DNA from: an uncultured Bacteroidota bacterium
GTDB lineage: Bacteria > Bacteroidota > Bacteroidia > Chitinophagales > Chitinophagaceae
Reading direction: 5' to 3'
Assembly (NCBI GenBank): GCA_903835005.1
Contig: CAILLK010000076.1
Span: forward strand, 1-64,000
Length of the DNA stretch: 64,000 nucleotides
The notes beneath the pieces were generated by a model, which had not been told where the DNA came from, did no database searches, and worked only from the letters and a program-made list of their open reading frames with translations. Both the position numbers and the translations under genes were made by a program. How positions within the stretch are numbered: the first letter of the stretch is position 1; the number at the start of each line of letters is the position of its first letter. Of this stretch, positions 7,737 to 23,559 are shown piece by piece.

Positions 7737-9434
7737 TTAATCGTTTTCGGCTGGTAATGAGAACCTGAATTCTGAGCCTTTCCCGACCTCACTATCTACC
7801 CATATTTTTCCTTTCTGAGCTTCAATAAAATCTTTAGATATCGAAAGCCCAAGTCCGGTACCTTTTGCTTTAGAACCGGGCACCTGGAAATACCTTTCAA
7901 ATAAGCGCGAAAGATACTCGCGGGCTATACCGGGCCCGTTATCTTCAACCGAAAAAACAAGGTTGCCCTTTTCCGATTTTACAGAGAGATTTATCTTTCC
8001 CCCATCCGGAGAATATTTAATGGCATTGGTCAGAAAATTATTCAGAACCCAGGTACTTTTTTCCGCATCAGCTTTTATTAACGGCAGATTATTTTCCAGC
8101 GTTTTTACAATTTCAACATTCTTATCCTTAGCGCTCGACGATACCGTTGCAATAGCATTATCTACTATTAAATAAGGATTTACTGATTGCACATCCAGTT
8201 GTATTCGTCCGGCTTCCACCTGCGACATATTGAGGAGCTCACTAAGAATTTTCAGTACCCTCTGGTTATCCTGCTTAAGATTCCTGATCAGTTCTTTCTG
8301 TTCTTCCGATAGCTTACCTACACGTTCATCCTCCAGTAATTTCAGGCTGAAATCAGATGCCGCAAGAGGGGTTTTAAGTTCATGAGATATAGTGGCTATA
8401 AAATTGGTTTTAGCTACATCAAGCTCTTTGAAGGAGGTAATATTCCGCAGCACTATTACTTTGCTGTTGCCCTCTCCCTGAGCCACTTCAACAACTTCTT
8501 TTATAAAATAATTTTCCCTGTTTTCTACTACAATTTTAAACGGGGCAGTGGTTTCATTGTTGATAAGAAAATTAAAAAGGTCATTCCGTTTACATAATTC
8601 GGCCACCGGCTTACCTACTATCTCTTCGGCTTTAAGGCCCAGCAACTGCAAAGCCCGGAAGTTGGCAAACAGAATATGGTTGTTAAGGTCTATGCCTATG
8701 CTTGCATCCTTAAGGCTGTTGATAACCGCTTCAGCCCGGCTCTTCTCAAACATCAGCTTATTGAGGTTGCTGCTTTCAAAATATTCCAGCCTTTGCGCCA
8801 TGTTATTAAATGCATCGGCAAGGCTGCCAAACTCATCCTTATTATCCATAAATATCCGGTGCCGGTAATTCTTGTTGGTAATCTCTTTAATGGCTTCACT
8901 TAGCTGATTAATAGGGTTGGCCACTATGGATGGGAAATTGACAGAAAAAGTAAAGGATATCAGGAATACAATCGTTGCCAGGCAGATTATAATAGTTAAA
9001 GCCCGTTCCGCAGTTGCTTCTGCTTTTGCATTTTTTATGTGTATGGCATTCATGTTGAGGTACAGTACTCTTTGAATGTCGCTTTGTATCTCCTTAATAT
9101 TCTGTTTTGTTGAGTCACCCGCTTTCAGTTTTTCAAACAACCGCCTCAATGTATGCGTAGCCACATCTTCGCCCGGCTCAGTAATATTATTTTCCTGCTG
9201 CATCAGTGCTGATTCAAATTGGATTAATGATTGACCGGCATTGATATCAAGGCTGTCGAGCTGTTGCTGCATTTCGTAGCAATACATCAGACTTTCATAG
9301 TTATCCTTCAAAACTTCTTTCGACTCACTTTTGAGGGTAGCCGTGTAGTAAATTCCCGCTCCTCCGGTCAATAGCAAAAGAAGAAACAAAAAAGTAGTCC
9401 CCAGCCATATTTTTTTCCTTACTGTTAGCGCCAT
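7737..9434 (-). CDS. HAMP-PAS sensor histidine kinase of the kdp region
   Basis: A membrane histidine kinase of 565 residues. The order is helix at about 10-31, periplasmic domain, helix at about 146-168, HAMP, PAS at about 230-335, HisKA with the phospho-accepting His351 in ATISHELKTPL, and HATPase with the N box NNFLTNAIKYSP, DNGPGI (498-503) and GTGLGLS. The ATG shares its A with the kdpD stop codon (TGATG), so the two genes are translationally coupled. The pair probably does the job of a single canonical KdpD. The likely partner regulator is the sigma-54 response regulator at 22222-23559; this is inferred from context. Confidence 0.85.
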   Translation of the reverse strand: MALTVRKKIWLGTTFLFLLLLLTGGAGIYYTATLKSESKEVLKDNYESLMYCYEMQQQLDSLDINAGQSLIQFESALMQQENNITEPGEDVATHTLRRLFEKLKAGDSTKQNIKEIQSDIQRVLYLNMNAIHIKNAKAEATAERALTIIICLATIVFLISFTFSVNFPSIVANPINQLSEAIKEITNKNYRHRIFMDNKDEFGSLADAFNNMAQRLEYFESSNLNKLMFEKSRAEAVINSLKDASIGIDLNNHILFANFRALQLLGLKAEEIVGKPVAELCKRNDLFNFLINNETTAPFKIVVENRENYFIKEVVEVAQGEGNSKVIVLRNITSFKELDVAKTNFIATISHELKTPLAASDFSLKLLEDERVGKLSEEQKELIRNLKQDNQRVLKILSELLNMSQVEAGRIQLDVQSVNPYLIVDNAIATVSSSAKDKNVEIVKTLENNLPLIKADAEKSTWVLNNFLTNAIKYSPDGGKINLSVKSEKGNLVFSVEDNGPGIAREYLSRLFERYFQVPGSKAKGTGLGLSISKDFIEAQKGKIWVDSEVGKGSEFRFSLPAEND

Positions 9435-10564
9435 CAGGACAAAATTATAATGTCAACATTGTTTTTTGATAGTGTCTTAAGCAATTGATTGAAAACACCT
9501 GTTCTCAGGATAATCTGGAACAGGTTTAAATGCGGTTTGCCGATACAAATAGTCGTCACATTTTTTTCTTCTGCTGTTTCCATTATAGTATGTGCCACAT
9601 TGTCGGATTGCCTGCGGATTACCTCTGCGCCAAGCTCTGTGGCGTTCTTGAAATTATTAATCAGGTGCCGTTGATCTGCCAGGTTAATTTTATCACTTGC
9701 TTCCTGAGCTGTCTGTACGTATAACACAAACCACTGGCTGTTGTAATAAGAAGCAAGCCTTGCTGTTTTGCGGATGATGCGCTGCGCAATTTCGTGATTG
9801 GACGAAATACAGGCCATAAACCGTTCGTGCCGGTAGGGTGTTTGTTTGGCTGTGATCTGGTAGTCCACTTTCCGTTCCACCTGGCCGGCTACTTCCTTCA
9901 GGGCAAGCTCCCGTAATTGCAATATCCTGTCTGGCTGAAAGAAATTCTGTAAAGCCTGCTGCACCTTGGAGTGGTCATATATTTTACCTTCCTTCAGCCG
10001 GGTAATCAGCTCATCTGCGGTCAGGTCAATATTTACTACCTCATCAGCAATCTGGAGCATTTTATCGGGCACCCGCTCCTTCACTTCCACTCCGGTTATT
10101 TCTTTTACTTCATTGTTTATGCTCTCAATATGCTGAATGTTTACCGCTGTAATCACGTCGATTCCTGCATCCAGCAGGTCCATTACATCCTGCCATCTTT
10201 TCTCATTCTTACTCCCCGGTATATTGGAATGTGCCAGTTCATCCACAATAACTATTTCGGGATGCAGGATAAGTATAGCCTGAACATCCAGTTCGTCCAG
10301 TTTCTTGCCTTTATAAAATACCTCCCGCCTTGGTATGATGGGCAATCCCTCAATCAGCGCCTGTGTTTCTTTTCTGCCATGGGTTTCCACATAACCCACT
10401 TTAATATTTACATTATTATTGAGCAGGCTGTGGGCTTCCTGCAGCATGCGGTAGGTCTTTCCCACACCAGCGCTCATACCTATATATATCTTCAGTCTGC
10501 CCCGGGTACTTTCACGGTTCAGATCAAGAAATTGTTGTACCTTCTTTTCTTTATCATCATCCAT
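9434..10564 (-). CDS. kdpD: KdpD N-terminal sensor protein without kinase domain
   Basis: A 376-residue protein equal to the cytosolic N-terminal half of KdpD. The KdpD domain carries Walker A GMSAGVGKT (29-37), GYVETHGRKET, and the DELAHSNIPGS motif (108-118). A universal-stress-protein-like domain follows from about residue 245 (RFMACISSN to ICIGKPH). The DUF4118 membrane domain and the kinase core of the ~890-residue E. coli KdpD are missing. The kinase is instead the next gene, overlapping by one base. The kdpD start overlaps the end of kup by 8 bp. It presumably senses K+ limitation and modulates the adjacent kinase. Confidence 0.9.
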   Translation of the reverse strand: MDDDKEKKVQQFLDLNRESTRGRLKIYIGMSAGVGKTYRMLQEAHSLLNNNVNIKVGYVETHGRKETQALIEGLPIIPRREVFYKGKKLDELDVQAILILHPEIVIVDELAHSNIPGSKNEKRWQDVMDLLDAGIDVITAVNIQHIESINNEVKEITGVEVKERVPDKMLQIADEVVNIDLTADELITRLKEGKIYDHSKVQQALQNFFQPDRILQLRELALKEVAGQVERKVDYQITAKQTPYRHERFMACISSNHEIAQRIIRKTARLASYYNSQWFVLYVQTAQEASDKINLADQRHLINNFKNATELGAEVIRRQSDNVAHTIMETAEEKNVTTICIGKPHLNLFQIILRTGVFNQLLKTLSKNNVDIIILS

Positions 10565-12512
10565 TTAAGTCCGTTTCTCTTTTAAGTTTAATATCCTCAG
10601 CTTCCTGAACTATGAGGGGTACACGTTCAATAACTACATTATTATAGTCAAGCCCGAATGCTTCAGCGTCAGGCAGACTTAGTTTATCGAGTATGAAATA
10701 CAGTTTCATCCTGATGTTTGTCCAGAAGGGGAGATCGTTCTCAAATGACAGGAAGCTTTTCAGAACAATAAACCGGAAATCGCCATATTCGCCGCCCTGA
10801 TCCACCAGGCAATGGTTTTTATCAATCGCCACCTCCTTATTTGCCACCAGATCTCTTACCACTTTTCTGAATAATAAATTGATACGGGGCACAACCCGGA
10901 ATCCAAGTTTGAACCTGACATATATAAGGTCATCCGGTGACAAAATTTTTACCGAATAACTCATTGTATACGGCGCATCATCAACCTCTACATGCAGCAG
11001 CCAGTATAGATCCGCCCGCTTGGGCTGCCCGCAAAATATGGACTCAATGATCCTGCTCTCAATTATACCGGGTTTTTCGGCGATAGTCAGATACGCAACA
11101 TGGGTGGCAAACTGTGGTATCGTGCTGTCGTTGCTCAGTTGCTTAAACAACGGGAGGTATTTATCAACTCTCAGGTATTTTTTAAACTTATTTTTAATCC
11201 TCCTGCCCGTATACCACATATACATGGTAGTAACCAGCAAAACACCAATAAGCATTGTGAGCCAGCCGCCATGAGCAAATTTTTTAAGATTGGCGGTAAG
11301 AAAGGTAAGCTCAATCCACAGGTAAATAATAAGCAGAGCAAAAATGAAAACCTTAGGCATTACTTTTCTGGAATACAGGTAATAACTCAGTAATACCGTA
11401 GTCATCAGCATTGTGAGGGTTACTGATAACCCAAATGCGGCCTCCATATTGCTTGATTCGCGGAAGTAAAGCACCATGCCGATACACCCGGCCATCATCA
11501 GCCAGTTGATAGAAGGCATATAAACCTGGCCGCGCAATTCTGAAGGGTATTTTGCCCGCAACCTGGGCCATATCTGCAACCTTACAGCTTCATTGAATAA
11601 TGTGTAGGTGCCGCTTATCAGCGCCTGGCTTGCTATAATAGTGGCCAGAGTGGAAATTGCAATTGCAGGCATCAGGAACCAGCGCGGAACCAGGCCATAA
11701 AATGCATCTACATCCTTCAGCGTGTGCCCGATATACGACTCAAGCAACGCAGCCTCTCCAAAATAACACAGCATCAAAGCCACTTTAATAAATATCCATG
11801 CTGCCTGAATATTCCTGCGCCCTACATGCCCCATATCGGCATACAAAGCCTCGGCGCCGGTGGTACATAAAAAAACACCGCCAAGCACCCAGAAACCTTC
11901 AGGATAATAAAGTACCATACGGAAGGCATAAACCGGATTCAGCGCTCTAAGTACAGAAAAATCCCTGACGAGGTTATTGATTCCCAGCACTGCAATCATA
12001 CCAAACCAAAGGACCATAGCCGGCCCGAAAAATTTACCGATACTGCCAGTGCCGGTTTGCTGAAAGAGGAACAATGCCGAAAGGATGCCGATAGTTATTG
12101 GTAATATAGGGAGGCCGGGATAAATTTCTTTAAGCCCCTCTATGGCCGATGTTACGGAGATGGGCGGTGTAATAAGGCTGTCGGCTATCATAAAACTGCC
12201 GCCGATGATAGCAGGCCACAACAGCCATTTGGCATGCCGCCTGATCAGGGCAAATAAAGAAAAGATTCCTCCTTCTCCTTTATTGTCGGCCCGCATGGTA
12301 ATCAGAACGTATTTTATGGTAGTCTGAAAAGTAAGTGTCCAGAATATAGCTGAAACACTGCCCAGGATAAGGGTTTCGGTAATAACCTGGTGGCCGATGA
12401 TGGCTTTAAAAGTATATAAAGGAGATGTGCCCAGGTCGCCGAATACAATTCCGAGTGCTATCAGAACGCCTGCATAAGTTATCTTCTTTATGTCGAGCTC
12501 TTTCATAAGCAT
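10557..12512 (-). CDS. kup: Low-affinity potassium transporter Kup
   Basis: Kup/Trk-type K+ uptake protein of 651 residues with about 12 transmembrane helices. Family signatures include ALGIVFGDLGTSPLYTFKAI near the N-terminus, NKGEGGIFSLFALIRRHAKW, the TGAEALYADMGHVGRRNIQ motif and a hydrophilic cytoplasmic C-terminus from about residue 440. It is the first gene after a terminator-like hairpin and overlaps kdpD, so constitutive uptake and the sensor genes share a transcript. The start is either ATG 12512 (MLMKEL) or ATG 12506 (MKEL). Confidence 0.93.
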   Translation of the reverse strand: MLMKELDIKKITYAGVLIALGIVFGDLGTSPLYTFKAIIGHQVITETLILGSVSAIFWTLTFQTTIKYVLITMRADNKGEGGIFSLFALIRRHAKWLLWPAIIGGSFMIADSLITPPISVTSAIEGLKEIYPGLPILPITIGILSALFLFQQTGTGSIGKFFGPAMVLWFGMIAVLGINNLVRDFSVLRALNPVYAFRMVLYYPEGFWVLGGVFLCTTGAEALYADMGHVGRRNIQAAWIFIKVALMLCYFGEAALLESYIGHTLKDVDAFYGLVPRWFLMPAIAISTLATIIASQALISGTYTLFNEAVRLQIWPRLRAKYPSELRGQVYMPSINWLMMAGCIGMVLYFRESSNMEAAFGLSVTLTMLMTTVLLSYYLYSRKVMPKVFIFALLIIYLWIELTFLTANLKKFAHGGWLTMLIGVLLVTTMYMWYTGRRIKNKFKKYLRVDKYLPLFKQLSNDSTIPQFATHVAYLTIAEKPGIIESRIIESIFCGQPKRADLYWLLHVEVDDAPYTMSYSVKILSPDDLIYVRFKLGFRVVPRINLLFRKVVRDLVANKEVAIDKNHCLVDQGGEYGDFRFIVLKSFLSFENDLPFWTNIRMKLYFILDKLSLPDAEAFGLDYNNVVIERVPLIVQEAEDIKLKRETDLNG

Positions 12513-12582
12513 CTGTTATTTATTTTAGCAACTGTAAAGTACGCCAAAAAACTATCGGTTGAGTAAAATTTCATATGGCAGG

Positions 12583-12615
12583 AAAAAGTGGCGGGCCAGA
12601 TCTGACCGCGCCACT
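12583..12615 (-). terminator. Rho-independent terminator downstream of the porin gene
   Basis: On the minus strand AGTGGCG and CGCCACT pair around a ~15 nt loop and are followed by TTTTT. It separates the kdp-porin transcript from kup-kdpD-kinase. Confidence 0.6.
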
Positions 12616-12685
12616 CTTCATTTTAAAACACACTATATTGATGATTATTAAGTACACTTTTGCTGATAGCTCACTATCGTTAAAA

Positions 12686-14122
12686 TTACAGCCTGAACAG
12701 GAATGCGGCAATAAGCTTGCTCTCAGATTTTTCAAGGTCGGGAGACCAGCCTGTCGGTATTGGGGTGTTTGTGTAGCCTGATGGAGAAGTAACTCCGCCG
12801 GGTCCGGCAAAGTAACCGACACTTGCTTCCCTGTGCACCCACTCCAGCTTGAATTCTACACTCTGGTTGGGCATCCACCGGAAACCGGTTGAGCAATCCC
12901 AGCCTGTAAATGGCATACCCGGGTTTTCCTGGAAAGGATAGGATCCTGAGGCACTTGTGTTGGTGCCTTGTGACACGCCCTGGGTAGGGTTGTAAGGATT
13001 AGGAAAGTTACTTGCCTGCCCTGTGGGTTCCAGCACAAGGTATCTGCCCGGATTGGTCATCCATCCGCCTCCAATGTACCAGCCTACTTTGTTTTTGGCA
13101 AACCAGATGTGGTTATATGCCATACAGCTTACAAAATACTGTGCCGGATTGTTTACCGGGTCGCTGTTGTTAAATCCGTTTACCCCGTCACCTTTCTCAA
13201 AGCCAACATCAGCAGTAATTGAAAATGCCGCCCTGTTGATACCGCTTACTTTTGAACCCTGGTAGTATCGCATCAGGAAGCTGTTATCTGAGTGAAACCT
13301 GTGCCTGCCTAATAGTCCGGCTACATCTGTGCCCCAATAATCATTGGTAAGCATCTTTATATTCTCTTTAGGGATGTAAGTTATGTTGCATCCCAGGCCC
13401 GGTAAAGCATTGAACATACCATAGCTCTGCCAGCCATTAATGATCCATGGTTCTACTTTCAATGTTTTGCTCAGCCACATCTGAATCCTGATTCCATTAA
13501 AAAACCAGGGTGTATTATCGGATGTATAGGATGCCTGGTATTCCCAGTTCTCCTGCTGGTAGTAGGAATTGAGCCCGATATAAGACATGAACAAACCCGC
13601 ATCAATATTCATGCCACCGTAAAAAACATTTGGGAAGTGATATCCTACATAAGCCTCGTCGAGATACCGATAAGCATCAGCCATATCATACTGGCCACGG
13701 TATGGGCTTACATCATTACGGGGAACAACAATTGCGCGCTCTCCGAATTGGGTCATTATCCTGCCCCGGGCATTGCCGTAGCTGAAATCACCTCCAAAAT
13801 TTACGGCTGAAATCACCATTTCATCCACGCGCGAAAGTGCCGTTGAGCCTACGCTCGTATGGTCTATTGGATTGTTGAAAGAATGGGCTGTATTGCAATC
13901 AATCAGGATGCTGGGCGTAAAAAACGGGATATGGAATATTGTTGAATCCCTGCGGTCGTTACCATTCACCCACGACAGGTCGTAACCGTCCCAGGTTACT
14001 TTTTCTGCTTCAGGCACTGTTGCAGTTGCCTGCGTCGTTGCACTCTGGTTGTTTTGTGCTTTAGCTTGTTGTGTAAGCATAAGGGCCGCTATTGCCGCAA
14101 ATGCTATTGTTGTTTTTTTCAT
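12686..14122 (-). CDS. Outer-membrane beta-barrel porin (BBP2-like)
   Basis: A 478-residue protein with a clear Sec signal peptide (MKKTTIAFAAIAALMLTQQ, cut after AKA). Mature sequence alternates polar and aromatic residues throughout and ends in Leu (IAAFLFRL), typical of an outer-membrane barrel. The pattern with repeated FxxxNVFYGGMNIDAGLF and YTSDNTPWFFNGIRI-like strands fits the putative beta-barrel porin-2 family found in Bacteroidota. It lies in line with kdpC and the YnfA gene, 176 bp after the latter. That suggests a potassium-related diffusion channel, which is an inference from context. Confidence 0.75.
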   Translation of the reverse strand: MKKTTIAFAAIAALMLTQQAKAQNNQSATTQATATVPEAEKVTWDGYDLSWVNGNDRRDSTIFHIPFFTPSILIDCNTAHSFNNPIDHTSVGSTALSRVDEMVISAVNFGGDFSYGNARGRIMTQFGERAIVVPRNDVSPYRGQYDMADAYRYLDEAYVGYHFPNVFYGGMNIDAGLFMSYIGLNSYYQQENWEYQASYTSDNTPWFFNGIRIQMWLSKTLKVEPWIINGWQSYGMFNALPGLGCNITYIPKENIKMLTNDYWGTDVAGLLGRHRFHSDNSFLMRYYQGSKVSGINRAAFSITADVGFEKGDGVNGFNNSDPVNNPAQYFVSCMAYNHIWFAKNKVGWYIGGGWMTNPGRYLVLEPTGQASNFPNPYNPTQGVSQGTNTSASGSYPFQENPGMPFTGWDCSTGFRWMPNQSVEFKLEWVHREASVGYFAGPGGVTSPSGYTNTPIPTGWSPDLEKSESKLIAAFLFRL

Positions 14123-14298
14123 TGTCTGTTATTTTTAGTGTGTTTTAAAATTTGCTTTTACTTAAAAAATGGTTCTGAAGTATTTGTTCTCAAAATTACC
14201 GGTGGCGCGAATTATGCTCTATGATTTCCGGCATCCGGATTGCTGACTATTATCAACTGTTTTTCTCAATCATCCATGATACTCTTTTTGCCTTATAC

Positions 14299-14643
14299 TT
14301 AAATTAATTTACGTGGTGCATAAAAAATCACTATTGTCCCGATTAATATTATTGCAGCTCCTACTATATCATACAAGTCTGGTTTTACTTTATCTATTTT
14401 CCATCCCCATAGTATTGCCATTATTACAAATATCCCTCCGTATGCAGCATATGTGCGGCCAAAGCTGGAAGGCTGGAATGTGGCAACAGCGCCATAAACA
14501 GCCAGCAGTATTCCGCCAAAAATGCCTACCCATAAGGGCTGTTTATTTTTAAGGGCAATCCATACCAGGTAACCTCCTCCTATCTCGCACAACCCTGCCA
14601 GAACAAAAAAAACTACAGACCGGATAATTGTCTCTTTAGTCAT
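14299..14643 (-). CDS. YnfA/UPF0060 family membrane protein
   Basis: A 114-residue inner-membrane protein with four hydrophobic helices, typical of the UPF0060/YnfA family related to small multidrug transporters. Motifs are FVLAGLCEIGGGYLVW and the FGRTYAAYGGIFVIMAILWG segment with the conserved Arg-Thr-Tyr-Ala-Ala-Tyr-Gly-Gly block. Its ATG directly abuts the kdpC stop codon with no gap, so it is co-translated with kdpC. A YnfA gene in a kdp operon is unusual; a role in cation handling is possible but unproven. Confidence 0.88.
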   Translation of the reverse strand: MTKETIIRSVVFFVLAGLCEIGGGYLVWIALKNKQPLWVGIFGGILLAVYGAVATFQPSSFGRTYAAYGGIFVIMAILWGWKIDKVKPDLYDIVGAAIILIGTIVIFYAPRKLI

Positions 14644-15204
14644 TTATTTCAGGTTATTGAGGTCCAGGTTCAGTTTTAAAACGTTTACACGGTCAGGCCC
14701 CATTCCCCACATGGGGCACTCAATGTGCGCCTTTACCAGAGTCTCTACTTTGCTTTTATCCAGGCCACGCACTTTAGCCACTCTGGCTACCTGTATCTCT
14801 GCGCCTTCCGCACTGATGTGTGGGTCTAGTCCGCTGCCGCTTGCCGTAACCATATCAGAAGGAATTTCCGCTTTATTAATTCCCGGATTATGCTGTATGA
14901 AAGTATCAATAGCGGCCTGAACCTGTGCCAGGTAGTCAGGGTTGTCCGGCCCCTTGTTACTGCCACCCGATCCGGCAGCATTATAACCAACCGCTGATGG
15001 CCTTGACCAGAAATATCTGTCGTCAGAGAACTTCTGGCCGATATTCTCATAGTAGTATTTGCCCTTGCCATCCTTAACTATAAAGCCTTCCCCTTTGTTG
15101 GGCGCCAGTTGGGCTATTCCCCACATCACCACCGGATAGACACCTGAAAAAAACAGGATGCAGATGATAGTCAACAAGATCGATGGAATTATTTCCTTTT
15201 TCAT
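14644..15204 (-). CDS. kdpC: K+-transporting ATPase subunit C
   Basis: KdpC is the single-span periplasmic-facing subunit that stabilises and helps ATP binding in the KdpFABC pump. The 186 residues show one N-terminal helix (IPSILLTIICILFFSGVYPV), the SRPSAVGYNAAGSGGSNKGP motif typical of the family, and DPHISAEGAEIQVARVA near the C-terminus. In most genomes kdpC follows kdpB directly. Here a 370 bp gap holds an opposite-strand gene. Confidence 0.95.
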   Translation of the reverse strand: MKKEIIPSILLTIICILFFSGVYPVVMWGIAQLAPNKGEGFIVKDGKGKYYYENIGQKFSDDRYFWSRPSAVGYNAAGSGGSNKGPDNPDYLAQVQAAIDTFIQHNPGINKAEIPSDMVTASGSGLDPHISAEGAEIQVARVAKVRGLDKSKVETLVKAHIECPMWGMGPDRVNVLKLNLDLNNLK

Positions 15205-15574: not shown

Positions 15575-17617
15575 TTACATCCATATTGCGACTACCATAT
15601 CTATTAATTTTATGCCGATGAATGGCACCAGTATACCTCCCAGCCCATACACCAGCAGGTTTCTTCTCAGCAATGCGCTGGCGCCTATAGGCTTATAAGC
15701 CACGCCTTTCAGCGCCAGCGGTATCAGCATCGGTATTATAATAGCATTGAAAATAATAGCCGATAATATGGCGCTCGAAGGGCTGTGCAGGTTCATGATA
15801 TTTATCTTCTGCAAAACTGGTATTGAGGTAATAAACAATGCCGGCACAATTGCAAAATACTTGGCAACGTCATTGGCGATAGAGAAGGTAGTCAGCGTAC
15901 CCCTGGTCATCAGCAATTGCTTGCCTATTTCCACTATCTCTATCAGCTTGGTAGGGTCGTTGTCGAGGTCCACCATGTTGCCTGCCTCTTTGGCTGCCGC
16001 CGTACCGCTGTTCATAGCCACGCCTACATCAGCCTGGGCCAGTGCCGGTGCATCATTGGTGCCATCACCCATCATAGCCACCAGCTTACCTGTAGCCTGC
16101 TCCTTGCGGATGTAGGCCATTTTATCTTCCGGCTTTGCTTCCGCTATATAGTCATCCACACCAGCCTTCTCTGCAATATATTTTGCTGTCAGCGGGTTAT
16201 CACCAGTTACCATCACGGTCTTAACTCCCATTTTCCTCAGGCGCTCAAAACGCTCAAATATGCCTGTCTTGATAATATCCTGCAATTCTATCACACCAAG
16301 CACAACATTATTCTCAAGTACTACCAGTGGCGTGCCACCATTAGAAGATATTTTCTTCACATCCTCAATAGTGCCGGCAGGGAATAAATTATCTGCTTTT
16401 TCTACCTTGTTCTTCATGGCGTCAAAAGCGCCCTTGCGGATCTGCGTATTCCCGAAATCAATACCGCTGCTGCGTGTCTCAGCAGTAAACTTGATAAATG
16501 TCGGATTATCCACCTGCAAGCTCTGCGGGTTGATTCCACCCAGTTCAATAATTGATTTGCCTTCCGGGGTCTCATCTGCCATTGAGCTTAAAACAGCACA
16601 TTTAATAAGACGATCCTTATCCACCCCTTTGGCAGGGTAAAAGTTGGTAGCCTTACGGTTGCCAATAGTGATAGTACCGGTTTTATCAAGCAGCAGCACA
16701 TCAAGGTCGCCCGCTGTTTCAACGGCTTTACCAGATTTGGCAATCACATTTGCCCGCAGCGCCCTGTCCATACCCGAAATACCTATTGCCGATAAAAGGC
16801 CACCAATAGTTGTTGGTATAAGGCATACGAATAATGAAATGTAGGCCGATATCGGGATGGGTGTTTTGGCATAGGATGCGAATGGCTGCAACGTAATACA
16901 AACTATAATGAACACCAGTGTAAACCCTGCAAGCAGTATGGTCAAAGCTATTTCATTTGGTGTTTTCTGCCTTGATGCACCTTCTACCAGTGCTATCATC
17001 TTGTCCAGGAAACTTTCTCCGGGTGAGGTGGTCACCTTCACCTTTATCTTATCAGAGAGCACTTTGGTGCCACCGGTTACTGAAGATTTATCGCCTCCAG
17101 ACTCACGCACCACTGGCGCCGACTCTCCGGTTATTGCCGATTCATCAATAGTTGCAATGCCTTCAATAATCTCTCCGTCGGTAGGTACTATATCGCCTGT
17201 TTCGCAAATGAAAACATCTCCTTTCACCAGTTCTGATGACGATACTACATGCACCTCATTCAGGTACATATTGCCTACCAGTTCTACTTTTTTAGCAGGA
17301 GTATCTTCCCTTGTTTTCCTCAGCGAGGCTGCCTGTGCCTTACCACGCGCTTCAGCCAGCGCTTCCGCGAAATTGGCAAAAAGCAGTGTAGCCAGCAGTA
17401 TCAGGAAGATGAGAAAATTGTAGGTGAATGAACCCTGGCTCTTCTCACCAGCCAGAATCCAGGCGCAGACAAACATCATTACGAATGTGCCTATCTCTAC
17501 AGTAAACATTACCGGGCTGCGAAACTGGTATTTCGGATTTAATTTTACAAAAGACTGCTTTATAGCATCAGCTACCAGCTCCCCCTTAAACAGTCCTTCT
17601 TTACGGTTCCTTTTCAT
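15575..17617 (-). CDS. kdpB: K+-transporting P-type ATPase subunit B
   Basis: KdpB is the ATP-hydrolysing subunit of the KdpFABC potassium pump. The 680 residues include the actuator motif TGES (163-166), whose Ser is the residue phosphorylated to inhibit the E. coli enzyme. Also present are the phosphorylation motif DKTGTIT with Asp311, the [12 protein letters not shown] nucleotide-binding region, [13 protein letters not shown] and the hinge [19 protein letters not shown]. About seven transmembrane helices are visible. Length is normal. It follows kdpA after a 170 bp gap that carries an inverted repeat. Confidence 0.97.
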
Positions 17618-17787: not shown

Positions 17788-19527
17788 TCAGGGGGTTTTC
17801 ATCCATTCAGCAATAGGCCCCAGCGCCAGTGCAGGGAAGAATGCCAATGCAGCTATAATCACTTTTACCGCAAACACCAGTAAACCAAATGTGCCGGTAT
17901 CTGTTTTCAGTGTACCCCCGCTGGCAGGTATGAATTTCTTGCCTGCCATCAACCCGGCTATTGCCACCGGACCTATAATAGGCAGGAAGCGGGAAAACAA
18001 AAGCACAATTCCGGTGCTGATATTCCAGAACGGATTGTTATCCGCAAGGCCTTCAAACCCGCTGCCGTTATTGGCAGATGATGAGGTATACTGATAAAGC
18101 ATCTCGCTGAATCCGTGGTAAGACGGATTGTTGAGCCATCCGCCGGCATTATGCTTGCCGGCTGCATCAGCAAACCACCAGCCCATATTAGTATCATGCG
18201 CTGTAAAGTAGCAGGCCAATGCTGTAAAACTCAGGATCAGAAACGGATGAAACAATGCTATTATCATAGCTATTTTCATTTCCCTTGCCTCGATCTTTTT
18301 GCCTTCGAACTCCGGAGTACGGCCTACCATCAGGCCACCTATGAACACAGCAAGTATCACATAAATGAAAAAGTTGAGAAACCCTACACCCACGCCGCCA
18401 TAAAATGAATTGATCATCATTCCCAGCAGCATATTCATACCCGATACCGGCATAAAACTATCGTGCATTGCATTTACCGAACCTGTGGAAATTACTGTGG
18501 TGGCTATGCTCCAGAATGCAGAGGCAACAGCCCCGAAGCGCACCTCCTTCCCTTCCATATTCCCGCCGGGCTGCGATATGCCCATGTGGGCTATATATGG
18601 GTTGCCATGCACTTCTGTTATGATGGCAGGTACCACAAGTATCAGGAATCCCAGTGTCATAACACCCCAGAATACCCACGCCAGTCTTTTCTTGTTGCAA
18701 TAAAAACCGAAGGCAAAGACCATGGCAAACGGTATCAGAATCTGTGCCACCATCTGCACAATGTTCGACAGGTAGGTTGGGTTTTCAAATGGATGGGCTG
18801 AGTTGGCCCCGAAAAAGCCCCCGCCGTTTGTGCCCAGGTGCTTAATGGCCACAAATGCGGCTACCGGTCCGCGGCTCACATGCATGGTATCGCCCTGTAC
18901 TGAGGTCACGGTATCAATGCCTTTAAAGGTCATCGGAGTTCCTTCAAACAAATGGATAGCAGCTATAAGAATACATATAGGTAAGAGGATACGTGTGCAG
19001 CTTCTTAAAAAATAATTATAGAAGTTACCCAGCTTATCGGTTGTTCTGTCCTTAAGCGCATTAAATACCACTGCTGCTGCCGCCATGCCGGTTCCGGCTG
19101 ATGCAAATTGCAGAAACATCAGTCCGAATACCTGTGAAAAATAGGAAACTCCTGTTTCTCCGCTGTATTGTTGCAGGTTGCAATTCACAAGAAACGAAAT
19201 GGCGGTATTTATTGCCAGGTCAGGCGTCATATTGGGATTATGATCCGGGTTCATCGGTAACCAGCTCTGGTTGAGCAGGCAGAATACTGCCCATAGAAAC
19301 CATATAAGGTTGATGGTAAGCAGGGCCACCAGGCTTTGCTTCCAGCCCATTTCTATACCCGGATCTATACGCGATGCTTTAAAAAATAACCGTTCAATGG
19401 GATTGAATATACCATCGGTCCAAACCCGCTGCCCGCCATACACTTTTGCAATATACCTTCCCAGGGGTACTGCAAGTAACAATGTTGCCACAAACATCAC
19501 GACAACACCTAAGATCTGAGAATTCAT
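17788..19527 (-). CDS. kdpA: K+-transporting ATPase subunit A
   Basis: KdpA is the channel-like, K+-selecting subunit of KdpFABC. The 579 residues contain about ten helices and the four filter-region loops, including NLQQYSGETGVSYFSQ and GTNGGGFFGANSAHPFENPT. At the C-terminus, SSANNGSGFEGL is followed by a last filter loop and helices. Length matches the family (about 560-590). It directly follows kdpF with 21 bp between them. Confidence 0.97.
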   Translation of the reverse strand: MNSQILGVVVMFVATLLLAVPLGRYIAKVYGGQRVWTDGIFNPIERLFFKASRIDPGIEMGWKQSLVALLTINLIWFLWAVFCLLNQSWLPMNPDHNPNMTPDLAINTAISFLVNCNLQQYSGETGVSYFSQVFGLMFLQFASAGTGMAAAAVVFNALKDRTTDKLGNFYNYFLRSCTRILLPICILIAAIHLFEGTPMTFKGIDTVTSVQGDTMHVSRGPVAAFVAIKHLGTNGGGFFGANSAHPFENPTYLSNIVQMVAQILIPFAMVFAFGFYCNKKRLAWVFWGVMTLGFLILVVPAIITEVHGNPYIAHMGISQPGGNMEGKEVRFGAVASAFWSIATTVISTGSVNAMHDSFMPVSGMNMLLGMMINSFYGGVGVGFLNFFIYVILAVFIGGLMVGRTPEFEGKKIEAREMKIAMIIALFHPFLILSFTALACYFTAHDTNMGWWFADAAGKHNAGGWLNNPSYHGFSEMLYQYTSSSANNGSGFEGLADNNPFWNISTGIVLLFSRFLPIIGPVAIAGLMAGKKFIPASGGTLKTDTGTFGLLVFAVKVIIAALAFFPALALGPIAEWMKTP

Positions 19528-19548
19528 GTAAATTTTATTTTATAATGA

Positions 19549-19626
19549 CTAAAATTTTTCCGGTTTAACTAATACATAGACCATATAGACAAATGTCAGT
19601 AAGGCTACAATGAATAATGCTGCCAT
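19549..19626 (-). CDS. kdpF: KdpF, 25-residue subunit of the potassium pump
   Basis: A 25-codon frame reads MAALFIVALLTFVYM followed by VYVLVKPEKF and TAG. It lies just upstream of kdpA. The single helix followed by a YVL(V/I)xPExF end is the hallmark of KdpF (E. coli KdpF is 29 residues with the same end pattern). KdpF sits in the membrane beside KdpA and stabilises the complex. It is too short for routine gene finders and easily missed. Confidence 0.9.
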   Translation of the reverse strand: MAALFIVALLTFVYMVYVLVKPEKF

Positions 19627-19636
19627 GTTTGTTGAT

Positions 19637-20221
19637 TTATTGTTTATTGATTGCTTGTGAATACAAATAGTTAATCTTAAAAGTATTGTGCACCTGATCA
19701 TATTCCTGCACATCCCCTTCATTAAGATACTGATTCAGCGCCAGCAGGAATTTATCGTTATTCCTGAATGCTTTTTTCAGATTGTCCATTGTCAGTTGAA
19801 CAATTTCCCCATCGGATGATGTACTGAAATAATAGGCGTTTACTACTATAAAGCCTTTACTTTGAGTGATATTCTTCTGCTGGGTATACACATAGATATT
19901 CCCTGCTTCTGCTATCTGGTATTCTGTATTATTATAAAACCGGAACACCTCGTTTTTGCAGTTTCTGTATCCATACAACTCACTTTTCAGGTATGTATAT
20001 TTCTTGCCGTTTTCTTCCACTTTTACAGTGGGCATATTCCAGAAAAAGTCGTGTACATGTATTGTTTTCCTGCCACTGCATGTATTCTTATTAGTCAGTA
20101 TATCGTTCCTGAAATCTGCCGCCGTCTTATAAATGCCACTCTGGCTTTTAGCATAGGTACTGAGCGAGATTATCAGCAGCACAGTACTTATTATTTTTGT
20201 CTTGTTTTTCATAATTTTCAT
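19637..20221 (-). CDS. Secreted hypothetical protein in the kdp operon
   Basis: A protein of about 194 residues with a signal peptide (KTKIISTVLLIISLSTYAKS, probable cut after Ser or Gln). The mature part has mixed charged and aromatic sequence with GRKTIHVHDFFWNMPTV and YGYRNCKNEVFRFYNNTEY. The family is not recognised. It lies between the 28-residue micropeptide and kdpF on the same strand, so it is co-transcribed with the pump genes. The frame is open to 20317, but the extra residues overlap the micropeptide stop; ATG 20221 or 20212 precedes the signal peptide. Confidence 0.6.
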   Translation of the reverse strand: MKIMKNKTKIISTVLLIISLSTYAKSQSGIYKTAADFRNDILTNKNTCSGRKTIHVHDFFWNMPTVKVEENGKKYTYLKSELYGYRNCKNEVFRFYNNTEYQIAEAGNIYVYTQQKNITQSKGFIVVNAYYFSTSSDGEIVQLTMDNLKKAFRNNDKFLLALNQYLNEGDVQEYDQVHNTFKINYLYSQAINKQ

Positions 20222-20313
20222 TTTATTTTTTTCCTGCCCTGGTACCCGATTGATAACACCTGAATACGGCAGGGAAATTTCGTTTAATACATATATCACT
20301 TGCTGCAGGGGTT

Positions 20314-20400
20314 TCAAATCTTTTCAAACCAGTCGATCGACTTATATAGCAGCCAGAAGCCCACCAGTGTTCCGACTATTAATGCTGTAGTTACTAACAT
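20314..20400 (-). CDS. 28-residue membrane micropeptide at the head of the kdp operon
   Basis: ATG at 20400 opens MLVTTALIVGTLVGFWLLY followed by KSIDWFEKI and TGA. One hydrophobic helix is followed by a charged end, the same layout as KdpF but with a distinct sequence. It starts 5 nt after the stop of the 36-residue peptide upstream. Tight spacing and a clean single-helix profile suggest a real gene. It could be an extra KdpF-like subunit or a regulator; neither is demonstrated. Confidence 0.6.
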   Translation of the reverse strand: MLVTTALIVGTLVGFWLLYKSIDWFEKI

Positions 20401-20405
20401 AAATT

Positions 20406-20516
20406 TTATTTTATCAGGTTAATTAATATTTTCGTTTTTAAATAAACCATGTATACCAGCGATAGGGTTATCAACCAAATGAAAACTATACCGGCTGTTT
20501 TTTCATTTCCTTTCAT
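20406..20516 (-). CDS. 36-residue membrane micropeptide, first gene of the kdp operon
   Basis: ATG at 20516 opens MKGNEKTAGIVFIWLITLS followed by LVYMVYLKTKILINLIK and TAA. It has a short polar N-terminus, one helix and a basic C-terminus. The VYMVYL stretch resembles the YMVYVL of KdpF in the same operon. It lies about 180 nt downstream of a sigma-54-type promoter and 5 nt before the next micropeptide. I infer it is translated; no family is recognised. Confidence 0.55.
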   Translation of the reverse strand: MKGNEKTAGIVFIWLITLSLVYMVYLKTKILINLIK

Positions 20517-20704
20517 TTTCCTCTGGCGCTCATAAATTTTATATTATAATTATCAGTCAAATAAAGCTGATAAATTAAATCTTCAATATGATCATGGTCA
20601 AATCGCTTATTGTTTATGGTCATTAATTTATATGATATTTATCAATATTAATTAAATACTCTTTCAATCGCTTATTTGACTGCAGATGTTTTTATCCGGA
20701 ATGA

Positions 20705-20720
20705 GGCAAAATATATGCCT
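20705..20720 (-). promoter_or_regulatory. Sigma-54 (-24/-12) promoter of the kdp operon
   Basis: The minus strand reads AGGCATATATTTTGCC. Against the consensus TGGCAYRNNNNTTGCW, all invariant positions match, including GG and GC exactly 12 bases apart; only the two outer bases differ. Transcription would start near 20693, 177 nt before the first micropeptide. The nearby NtrC-family activator makes regulation by RpoN likely. Two AATCGCTTATT direct repeats (20601-20611, 20666-20676) lie in the leader. Confidence 0.65.
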
Positions 20721-20811
20721 GAACCACAACCATATAGCGCTGAATACCGGGAAGTGCCGCCTGTATTGATTGATGCCTTTTCTCTCCATATATCCCGCTC
20801 TTGCTACAAAC

Positions 20812-20842
20812 AAAAAACCTTCTCAAAATGAGAAGGTTTTTT
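20812..20842 (-). terminator. Strong bidirectional terminator
   Basis: ACCTTCTCA (817-825) and TGAGAAGGT (829-837) form a perfect 9 bp stem with an AAA loop. Runs of A on one side and T on the other allow termination in both directions. It ends the GNAT gene and insulates the kdp promoter. Confidence 0.85.
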
Positions 20843-20868
20843 ATCAGAATGAGAGCCGATGATGTGCT

Positions 20869-21519
20869 TTAGTCCTTTCTTTCAGGGTCATATAACAAGG
20901 CTGTACATAAGCAGTTTTTCCTTCCTTTGCTCATAAGCACCGGGCAATTGACGCAGGATTTGCAACCCTCCCAGAAAGCATCATCCGAAGTAATCTCAGA
21001 ATAAGTTACGGGCTCAAATCCCAGCTCATGGTTCATTTTCATAACTGCGAGGCCGGTGGTAAGACTGAATATTTTTGCTGCCGGGTATTTCTGGCGGCTC
21101 AGTTCAAATATTTTATGCTTGATCTTCTTGCCAATTCCTGATTTCCTGAATTCGGGAGCAACTATCAGGCCGGAATTAGAAACAAATTTCCCGTCTTCCC
21201 AGCTTGAGATATAAGAAAATCCGACCCATTTGCCATCTGGTGCAAAAGCTATAACAGCTTCGCCCTGAATCATTTTCAACTGAATAGATTGAGGTGTGCG
21301 CTTAGAGATACCAGTGCCGCGGGCTATGGCTGAGGCCAGCATCTCATCGCAGATTTCTTTTGCCCAAAACAGGTGACTGATATTGGCTACCTCCACTGTA
21401 AATTCAGGCTGTGTTTCCGGAAGATAGTTACTTTTTAAAGGGATAATATTGCCAGGTATTGTTCCTGGGAGTAAATACCTGTTATTAATCGGATACAAAC
21501 TGTATTGTCGGGCTTCCAT
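20869..21519 (-). CDS. GNAT acetyltransferase with Cys-rich tail (possible ArgA-type)
   Basis: A 216-residue GNAT-fold acetyltransferase. Acetyl-CoA binding motif A is seen as VAPEFRKSGIGKKIKHK (about 120-136). The C-terminus carries five cysteines in CKSCVNC and NCLC (186, 189, 192, 203, 205), which could bind a metal. This layout, with FWEGCKSC and CLCTALLYDP, recalls the GNAT that heads arginine operons in Bacteroidota and is thought to acetylate glutamate. Here no arg gene is adjacent, so the role is uncertain. A strong terminator follows. Confidence 0.7.
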   Translation of the reverse strand: MEARQYSLYPINNRYLLPGTIPGNIIPLKSNYLPETQPEFTVEVANISHLFWAKEICDEMLASAIARGTGISKRTPQSIQLKMIQGEAVIAFAPDGKWVGFSYISSWEDGKFVSNSGLIVAPEFRKSGIGKKIKHKIFELSRQKYPAAKIFSLTTGLAVMKMNHELGFEPVTYSEITSDDAFWEGCKSCVNCPVLMSKGRKNCLCTALLYDPERKD

Positions 21520-21697: not shown

Positions 21698-22054
21698 TCA
21701 ACAACCTCTGTGGCATACCTGCTCTATATAAAGTGTATACAGCGTCATGGGTATAATAGCCATCAGTTGCTGTTTCTCATCGGGATAAATGAGGAACAGC
21801 CTGGTAAAGGAGAACACAAAAACATTTTCTATGGCATTTCTTACCGCCCGGTTTCCCTTAGTGTATAATTTGTCAACAAGTCTCAAACAGCGTTTTACAA
21901 CTCCGAAATTATGTGCCTTTATATTTTTGCACATAAACTCAATCAGCGCATTCATAGTTTCAGAGGCATTGCTTTTCTTGCCTGCAGCTAATAAAGTGGT
22001 GATTTCGGGTAAGGCTTGTTCAAGATATATCGGTATTTCGATCTGGTTGATCAT
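21698..22054 (-). CDS. Small helical protein, unknown (possibly DUF7674)
   Basis: A 118-residue mostly helical soluble protein. The centre (FGVVKRCLRLVDKLYTKGN followed by RAVRNAIENVFVFSF) resembles a small Bacteroidota family annotated as DUF7674; I hold this loosely. No membrane segment or signal peptide. It follows the sigma-54 regulator on the same strand after a 167 bp gap. Confidence 0.5.
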   Translation of the reverse strand: MINQIEIPIYLEQALPEITTLLAAGKKSNASETMNALIEFMCKNIKAHNFGVVKRCLRLVDKLYTKGNRAVRNAIENVFVFSFTRLFLIYPDEKQQLMAIIPMTLYTLYIEQVCHRGC

Positions 22055-22221: not shown

Positions 22222-23559
22222 TTACTTAATTCCATACTCTTCAATCTTCCGGTATAGTGTGGCCAGGCCTATATCCATAAGGCGTGCGGCTTCGGCTTTG
22301 TTGCCGTGGGTATGCTGCAGCATTTTCCGGATATGAAATTCTTCTATTGTAGCAAGGTGGTATAATGAGCCATTATTACAGCTTTTGCCCTGCCTGATCT
22401 CATATGGCAGGCTTCCGGGCTGCAGCGTATCGCTTTCTTCAAGGATAACGGCGCGTTCCATTACATTTTTCAGTTCCCTCACATTGCCTTTCCATTCATT
22501 CTGTTTCAGCAATTCCAGGGCTTCTTTCGAAATTGCATAAATGTTTTTATTTGTTTTGCCGGCATACAGATTCAAGAAATGCTGAGCCAGTAAGGGTATA
22601 TCTTTCACCCTTTCTCTAAGTGAGGGCAGATCAATACTGAAAACGGCTATGCGGTAATACAGATCGCTTCTGAAATGCCCTTCGGCTATTTCCTTCTGCA
22701 GGTCTCTGTTGGAGGCAGCAATGATCCTGAGTGTTGCTTTATGCTCCCTGGTATCGCCTACGCGCAGGTAGGTGCCGTTTTCCAGCAGCCGCAATAATTT
22801 AGGCTGCAATTCCATCGGCATTTCGCCTATCTCATCAAGGAACAGGGTACCGCCGTTAGCCTCTTCCACAAGGCCTTTCTTATCTTTATTTGCTCCGGTA
22901 AAGGCCCCGGCTTTATGCCCGAATAATTCACTTTCCAGCAGATCTTTGCTGAAAGCGCTGCAGTTGAGCGCGACGAAAGCCTGATTCAGATGAGGGCTGC
23001 TGTAGTGTATAGCCTGTGCAAACACCTCCTTGCCTGTTCCTGTTTCGCCTGTCAGCAGCACAGCAGCTTCGGTGGGGGCTACCTTTCGGGCAAGCTGTAT
23101 GGCGCTCTGTATCTCCGGGCTGTTGCCTATAATTTTTTCAAAACCAAACTGGCTGCCCAATTGTTGCTCCAGTTTCACCACCCTTTTCTGCAGGGCCACT
23201 TTTTCAGAAACGCGGCTCAGCAAGGGTATGATTTTATCATTGTCATTTCCCTTTACCAGGTAGTCGAACGCGCCGTTTTTTATGGCCTGTATGCCATCGG
23301 GCAGGTTGCCGTAGGCGGTTAACAATATCACTTCAACCGAAGGGTATTTCTCCTTTACTTCTCTGGTGAAATCAACGCCATTTCCATCTGTCAGTTTCAC
23401 ATCGCACAGCACAATATCAACAGGCTGGTTTTCCAAAGCATGACGGGCGTTGGCTATTGTAGCCACATCAGCTACTTTATACCCTTCCAGCGAAATGATA
23501 CGCTTAAGCAGGGACCTTAGTTTTTCTTCATCGTCTATCAGCAGAATGTTTATCACCAT
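22222..23559 (-). CDS. NtrC-family sigma-54-dependent response regulator
   Basis: A 445-residue activator. The receiver domain (1-120) has acidic residues IDDEE and phospho-acceptor Asp53 in [11 protein letters not shown]. The AAA+ domain has Walker A GETGTGKE (171-178) and the sigma-54 contact loop GAFTGA (218-223). The C-terminal Fis-type helix-turn-helix reads [20 protein letters not shown]. It is the only response regulator near kdp, and a -24/-12 promoter precedes the kdp operon, so it probably replaces KdpE. It has its own vegetative-type promoter. Confidence 0.93.

Follow-up and report, generated by a model that had tools for sequence, protein, structure and literature searches.

A conserved single-span peptide gene upstream of kdpF, with predicted sigma-54 control of the kdp operon, in Bacteroidia

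A 28-codon frame on the minus strand upstream of kdpF in an uncultured bacterium of the Chitinophagaceae is almost certainly a real, selected gene tied to kdp. This assignment is made from sequence: homologues occur in nearly all related loci, the codons are under purifying selection and the frame is linked to kdpA. Its product, here called the core peptide, is most likely a second single-span partner of the KdpFABC potassium pump, a function that we infer. The frame was analysed within a stretch of 64,000 nt (the window; GenBank assembly GCA_903835005.1, contig CAILLK010000076.1, positions 1 to 64,000), which belongs to a genome of 5.9 Mb. The whole scheme that we propose, in which a split KdpD, an NtrC-type regulator and sigma-54 would control the operon and the core peptide would be a partner of KdpFABC, has in our estimate a probability of about 0.6.

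The genes of the kdp region all lie on the minus strand of the window. The order begins with an NtrC-type response regulator (22222..23559) that consists of a receiver, a sigma-54 AAA+ domain and a Fis helix-turn-helix (Pfam Response_reg 1.7e-25, Sigma54_activat 7.4e-70, HTH_8 2.7e-10), and continues with a DUF7674 protein (21698..22054, PF24722 1.1e-20), a GNAT acetyltransferase (20869-21519), the micropeptides, a secreted hypothetical protein, kdpF, kdpA, kdpB and kdpC. A frame of 36 codons (MKGNEKTAGIVFIWLITLSLVYMVYLKTKILINLIK, 20406..20516) and the core frame of 28 codons (MLVTTALIVGTLVGFWLLYKSIDWFEKI, 20314..20400) encode one helix each, are 5 nt apart and stand in line with the secreted hypothetical, kdpF (25 codons) and kdpA, as an earlier note on this DNA had described. 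The secreted hypothetical protein was read by translation (start at 20221 or 20212, end at 19637) and had tblastn matches in nine other loci; searched as 19637-20221, it matched no Pfam or NCBIfam family over cut-off. While kdpF (19549..19626) matched PF09604 over the cut-off (E=3.3e-7) and TIGR02115 under it (2.4e-4), kdpA (17788..19527) matched PF03814 at 3.2e-221, and the translated frames at 15575..17617 and 14644..15204 are, to judge by their position, presumably kdpB and kdpC. After kdpC follow genes for a YnfA/UPF0060 membrane protein (14299..14643, Pfam 2.2e-43), a BBP2-type outer-membrane porin (12686..14122, Pfam 4.2e-28), a Kup-type K+ transporter (10557..12512, Pfam K_trans 1.6e-152), a KdpD N-terminal sensor without kinase (KdpD-N; 9434..10564, Pfam KdpD 3.6e-92, with Usp at 9.7e-4 and NF038185 at 3.2e-107 both under cut-off) and a separate histidine kinase (7737..9434, Pfam domains 4HB_MCP, HAMP, PAS, HisKA and HATPase). 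The YnfA-family protein, the porin and the Kup transporter between kdpC and the KdpD-N gene (10557-14643) resemble one potassium regulon. In some relatives, DUF7674-like frames occupy the same position between the regulator gene and kdp, and in two of them (L051 and L054) the DUF7674-like end is, by eye, directly followed by the palindrome described below. Elsewhere in the window there is an open frame of 5068 codons (28847-44053) with repeated bacterial Ig-like domains in its first third, the part that was scanned.

The core peptide was traced through class-type loci, that is, loci whose kdpA is at least 54% identical to that of the window; there were 168 of these, or 165 after identical ones had been merged, and the kdpA loci were chosen partly as those of best score. 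The first model, built from nine members of the family, detected relatives in other families of the class, located upstream of kdpA, and was then iterated. A homologue at E<1e-3 was present in 155 of the 165 loci and KdpF in 163; the class HMM had been trained on 123 of 150 loci, so that these counts cover many of the same loci. All 155 homologues lie upstream of KdpF on the same strand (in the window one gene intervenes), with a gap to kdpF of about 60 nt or less in 137 loci and of >60 nt in 18, and 121 of the 123 training-set matches have an ATG that gives 26-31 residues. A separately fetched set of named loci, whose class members are Bacteroidia genera, carried the core peptide in 35 of 39 cases, or in 32 of 36 new ones when three loci that duplicate training loci (L215, L216 and L218) are set aside. 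The named genera with the peptide include Flavobacterium, Chryseobacterium, Elizabethkingia, Pedobacter, Hymenobacter, Spirosoma, Phocaeicola and Paraprevotella. One of the duplicates, L216, is a Chitinophagaceae record and shares its kdpA stretch with L036, a locus of the window's family. At the codon level, pN/pS was 0.25 (267 pairs with 70-97% nucleotide identity) and the median dN/dS 0.16 (240 pairs), while the other two reading frames over the same 267 pairs gave pN/pS of 1.01 and 1.97.

Linkage to kdpA was seen in a scan of 395 genomes of the phylum. All 44 matches at E<1e-6 lay on the strand of kdpA and 114-918 nt upstream of it, as did one match at 3.3e-4; of six weaker matches checked for position, one (E=0.083) was beside kdpA and five were elsewhere. 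The ten class loci that gave no homologue include one that ends at a contig edge (L050), one without the kdpA start (L247, match from residue 148), one with a second kdp type (L052_b), two with sub-threshold candidates (L137 and L242) and one that carries the tail out of frame (L210). No core peptide was found in the class loci L110, L163, L167 and L225. The second, divergent kdpA type (44-57% identical) was seen in L014, L018, L052_b and L130; at these loci a recognised KdpF and the core peptide are both absent.

The 36-codon frame (20516-20406) has a narrower distribution. Relatives at E<1e-4 occur in 12 loci including itself, in 10 of which the peptide ends 5-50 nt before the core peptide, and by clustering it groups with frames in 18 of 165 loci; in 34 other genomes of its own genus there was no convincing relative (best E=0.099). 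The 36-residue peptide is thus, judged by its homologues, a real but patchy accessory gene. The earlier note had placed two micropeptide genes on one footing and had suggested looking for both frames in Bacteroidota kdp loci. Conservation supports both as genes, the 28-codon frame as the core (155/165) and the 36-codon frame as patchy (about 18/165), and such a search returned the 28-codon frame, conserved with selected codons, but no convincing match to the 36-codon frame in the genus. Another 36-codon frame (20513..20623), which shares an ATGA overlap with the accessory frame, had no homologue among 168 leaders searched (next best E=6.6) and is probably not a conserved gene. Clustering also gave other leader micropeptide groups in 11, 8, 3 and 3 loci; a cluster of 11 helix-like frames in Flavobacterium-type leaders was not counted as it looked, by eye, like a spurious out-of-frame reading of a conserved upstream gene. 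A single-span group of the SWHLLA..IIIAGIIYRI type was observed upstream of kdp in 11 loci (L023, L038, L087, L138, L141, L158, L160, L161, L164, L168 and L219). A group of small peptides of the MTISRKTFKKREHS type was observed in eight (L086, L090, L093, L094, L102, L220, L226 and L235), three of which are named Chryseobacterium or Elizabethkingia.

Similar peptides precede kdpF in other phyla. The named loci that do not belong to the class-type set number 41; our script recognised a KdpF in 32, and 26 of these 32 had an abutting upstream single-span ORF compared to 1.5% in shuffled leaders. An alignment of 32 non-Bacteroidia peptides (A4) is gap-free over the core, with the consensus M-x-D-x9-FF-x-L-x7-C-D, and its profile matched that of the Bacteroidia peptides (A1) over 28 of 28 columns (88.5%, E 2.7e-6). 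Members of this pre-KdpF group have 26-44 aa, one helix and a short polar tail that is often [CFW][DE][KR][IL]. The core peptide of the window fits the group, with 28 aa, the tail WFEKI and a gene upstream of kdpF on the same strand. Ten pre-KdpF peptides gave no match over cut-off in NCBIfam and Pfam, nor did any of the three small frames of the window (20623-20513, 20516-20406 and 20400-20314) over the curated cut-offs of these collections, and a PDB sequence search with the core profile gave one chance-level match (E=1.2). In 299 Pseudomonadota genomes, 98 of which have kdpA, there were 54 matches at E<1e-3, where profiles A1 and A4 already include peptides of some of the genomes searched with them; 53 were upstream of kdpA, and the remaining one, at the end of a contig, stands before kdpF. 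An adjacent match at E<=0.01 was present in 56 of the 98 kdpA genomes. Where three genomes carry several kdp loci, seven of seven peptide matches lie beside a kdpA; one further full kdpA of genome G841 and the split kdpA of G828 had no peptide match at E<=0.01. A related peptide frame is also carried by the Rhizobium etli CFN 42 plasmid.

Could the core peptide be a duplicated KdpF? The two are alike in being single-span peptides of about 25-30 aa encoded in the same operon just before kdpA, and both have EK near the C terminus. The core peptide nevertheless has another sequence profile and sits further upstream, the genuine kdpF being a separate frame (19626-19549). When aligned with hhalign, the core peptide and KdpF shared just 18 columns (37.6%), and the non-Bacteroidia peptides scored 7.3% against KdpF, while the two pre-KdpF groups scored 88.5% against each other. 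Neither peptide of the window matched a KdpF model at E<=1, their weak matches being below cut-off and to unrelated families. Membership of the core peptide in the KdpF family (PF09604 / TIGR02115) was therefore rejected, as both the family model and the whole-length profile failed, and a duplication of KdpF seems very unlikely.

The pump itself can exist without the core peptide, as peptide-less kdp loci occur. Of eight matchless Pseudomonadota loci that we inspected, seven are without a helix frame next to kdpF, and the eighth has a copy that the search had missed; E. coli K-12 has no such peptide as a separate frame between ybfA and kdpF, and the second kdp type lacks it as well. A single record each of Enterobacter, Pseudomonas and Staphylococcus was inspected, and none showed such a peptide. 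The KdpF of the seven peptide-less Pseudomonadota loci look, in our judgement, enterobacterial or Pseudomonas-like, and the KdpF tails of E. coli K-12 and of the three records are without the usual PE(K/R)F end. An abutting helix ORF was present in 41 of 51 loci with PE-type tails compared to 3 of 11 without (Fisher p=0.0012), in a test where the three (L297, L318 and L323) and some of the 41 (e.g. L079 and L080) look spurious, loci are clustered by ancestry and those with a KdpF that the script did not recognise are left out. The tendency of peptide-less lineages to have a KdpF without the PE-type tail is thus only a lead, confounded by ancestry and spurious ORFs. Such tails were seen at the apparently peptide-less loci L316-L321, L323, L293, L280, L297, L277 and L324. 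The open frame of kdpF in E. coli K-12 (L324) extends 38 codons upstream of the annotated start, and its first residues form a hydrophobic stretch (MAFAIFILFLHP); L323 has a comparable stretch in another frame. On a Phenylobacterium plasmid (L290), a 27-codon peptide frame lies 85-169 nt upstream of kdpA. For Caulobacter, passages of PMC8552747 describe a 5' UTR ahead of kdpF, about 100 nt long, that is predicted to be structured. By analogy this UTR may be coding, because the plasmid of Phenylobacterium, a member of the same family, has its 27-codon frame there.

In the window, the micropeptide frames stand behind a probable sigma-54 -24/-12 promoter, AGGCATATATTTTGCC (20705..20720, 18.9 bits), with a predicted transcription start at ~20693. 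The site keeps the sigma-54 positions (GG-N10-GC), as stated in the earlier note. From 121 leaders of the class we learned a two-block motif, (T/A/C)GG(C/A)A(T/C) and, after 3-4 bases, TTTGGCATA. Scored on the loci it was learned from, it reached at least 14 bits in 73% of leaders; among the controls the share was 5% for shuffles, 7% for antisense leaders and 10% for 242 segments from within kdp. In the named loci it reached this score in 27 of 34, two of which (L216 and L218) duplicate training loci. The learned motif is GG-N10-GG-C in most class loci, with a spacer weight of 0.68, and the exact GG-N10-GC accounts for only 0.25 of the weight, so that the class consensus is one base off the textbook spacing, to which the site in the window conforms. 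A canonical sigma-54 weight scheme was set aside: at 12 points it found 37% of 118 leaders compared to 11% of shuffles, and the learned motif did better.

A 17-bp palindrome, CTTCTCATTTTGAGAAG (20819..20835, 19.6 bits), lies 115 nt upstream of the sigma-54 site and is the presumed activator site. The class motif, CCTWTCAWWWTGAWAGG, is likewise 17 bp long. Among the 113 loci whose promoter site scores at least 14 bits, the same loci that the motif was learned from, it reached at least 10 bits in 92%, compared to 0.2% of shuffles and 0.9% of genic controls. A strict palindrome was present in 115 of 151 leaders, and 113 of these also have a promoter site downstream that scores at least 8 bits; in shuffled stretches the figure was 12 of 116. 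The distance from palindrome to promoter was 91-95 in 61 of 114 loci, 111-119 in 35, 102-104 in 8, 82-83 in 2, 136-137 in 2 and elsewhere in 6; the groups are ~10.5 bp apart, about one helical turn. A T run follows the palindrome in the window, and the palindrome could therefore also terminate the upstream gene. That it is merely such a terminator and the promoter is not sigma-54 dependent, a reading to which the off-textbook -12 box of most class loci would lend itself, is most improbable: the palindrome is kept class-wide in its sequence, beyond mere symmetry, its distances to the promoter are phased, and an exact-arm search of the genome found the arms of the window in one exact copy, plus one site with two mismatches, with no second exact copy.

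Sigma-54 control of the kdp operon, which the earlier note had read from the single site, is thus highly probable, as it is backed by phylogenetic footprinting, the phased palindrome, the NtrC-type regulator gene and rpoN, of which the genome has one match. The window itself combines the GG-N10-GC element with the phased upstream palindrome as candidate activator site, and the genome holds rpoN and an activator gene. A tblastn relative of the window's NtrC-type regulator was present in the locus DNA of 34 of 39 named Bacteroidota loci compared to 4 of 41 others. The regulator (22222..23559) is likely to be the activator of the kdp promoter, and the separate histidine kinase (7737..9434) its likely partner.

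In the scheme that we propose, a signal of potassium shortage would reach the split KdpD, made up of the KdpD-N sensor and the separate membrane kinase, which would phosphorylate the NtrC-type regulator. The regulator would bind the palindrome (20835-20819) and, by looping, activate RNA polymerase-sigma-54 at 20720-20705. The transcript would start with one or two membrane micropeptides, both presumably translated. The core peptide would then insert as one helix and join KdpFABC beside KdpF, as a second small subunit or as an assembly and stability factor, and the 36-residue peptide would be an optional accessory of some lineages.

Might the peptides act on the sensor side instead, by binding KdpD-N or the histidine kinase and feeding back on kdp expression? 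They are promoter-proximal and run in the same direction as the sensor genes, and over-expressed Salmonella KdpF modulates kdp expression, according to a title cited in PMC5401905. However, the pre-KdpF peptide accompanies KdpF at loci with an apparent whole KdpD (deduced from match spacing), with KdpD-N alone, with no KdpD in the locus DNA examined, or with the NtrC type. As it is present across these KdpD arrangements, the peptide is not tied to one sensor type and tracks kdpF and kdpA, which makes a role on the sensor side unlikely.

Another possible explanation could be that the frames are a leader: translating a short membrane frame would control expression of the genes downstream or bring the polysome to the membrane, and the cell could do without the peptide itself. 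Their position at the 5' end of the operon would fit this, as would the ATGA overlap of the peptide stop with the kdpF start in 18 of 44 non-Bacteroidia cases, two of which (L318 and L323) look spurious. Yet the amino acids are kept, the charged tail included, while synonymous sites vary freely, the spacing to kdpF exceeds 60 nt in the 18 of 155 class loci noted above, and the six Rfam matches at 19500-21000 all fall far short of their gathering scores. On this ground an RNA leader or riboswitch was rejected. We consider a dispensable leader peptide distinctly improbable. An action on the pump, rather than on the sensor or on RNA, has somewhat better than even odds. Of the two roles that the earlier note had offered, extra pump subunits agree with the reading that we favour, while nothing in this analysis points to sensors of membrane state. 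It is favoured because the core peptide follows kdpF and kdpA across phyla and regulator kinds, and because the frequent overlap of peptide stop and kdpF start, the two doubtful cases aside, is expected of partners that are made together.

Parts of the proposed scheme have relatives in known systems. The regulator DVU3334 of Desulfovibrio vulgaris is presumably itself of the NtrC type. Passages of PMC3333781 describe that it controls its own kdpFABC operon, that KdpD is split there into a sensor+UspA protein and a separate kinase, that 22 of the 29 regulators with DNA-binding function belong to the NtrC family and that orthologues are reported only in two other species. By analogy, the sensor, kinase and regulator set of the window resembles this system in outline, but no small peptide is mentioned in those passages. 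The CydX peptide, in turn, is a tiny hydrophobic helix of a membrane complex and, according to PMC6005532, is required for its enzyme, while the role of the core peptide is predicted.

The kdp genes of Alicyclobacillus are reportedly written kdpZFABCN, and kdpZ and kdpY of Clostridium acetobutylicum are said to encode hydrophobic peptides. The C. acetobutylicum operon is written kdpZYABCXDE after 1997 work cited in PMC5401905, so that, as far as this passing citation goes, genes before kdpA have already been named in one species; these two genes can be set beside the core peptide by description only, and no family model, assigned function or broad survey was met with for them. The ideas of the earlier note thus have precedents, both in the control of kdpFABC by DVU3334 (PMC3333781) and in kdpZYABCXDE (PMC5401905), to the extent that the passages of these sources cover them. 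In the literature searched, with subscription papers mostly outside its scope, no title or abstract start described a conserved pre-kdpF peptide gene or sigma-54 control of kdp in Bacteroidota.

Kdp is a standard model of bacterial potassium uptake and of the P-type ATPase mechanism, and it is known mainly from E. coli. As E. coli K-12 is without the peptide, studies of its pump had no way to reveal it. We hold it to be an even call that the Kdp of many bacteria has a fifth conserved component, the single-span pre-kdpF peptide of 26-44 residues, which in Bacteroidia would head its own sigma-54 operon with optional micropeptides. If this is true, the list of pump parts would have to be revised to include a conserved small component that many bacteria possess and E. 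coli K-12 does not, and natural systems that have or lack the peptide could be compared to find out what micropeptides of this kind do. The class-wide sigma-54 switch would give Bacteroidia a dedicated, testable kdp promoter with a candidate activator site.
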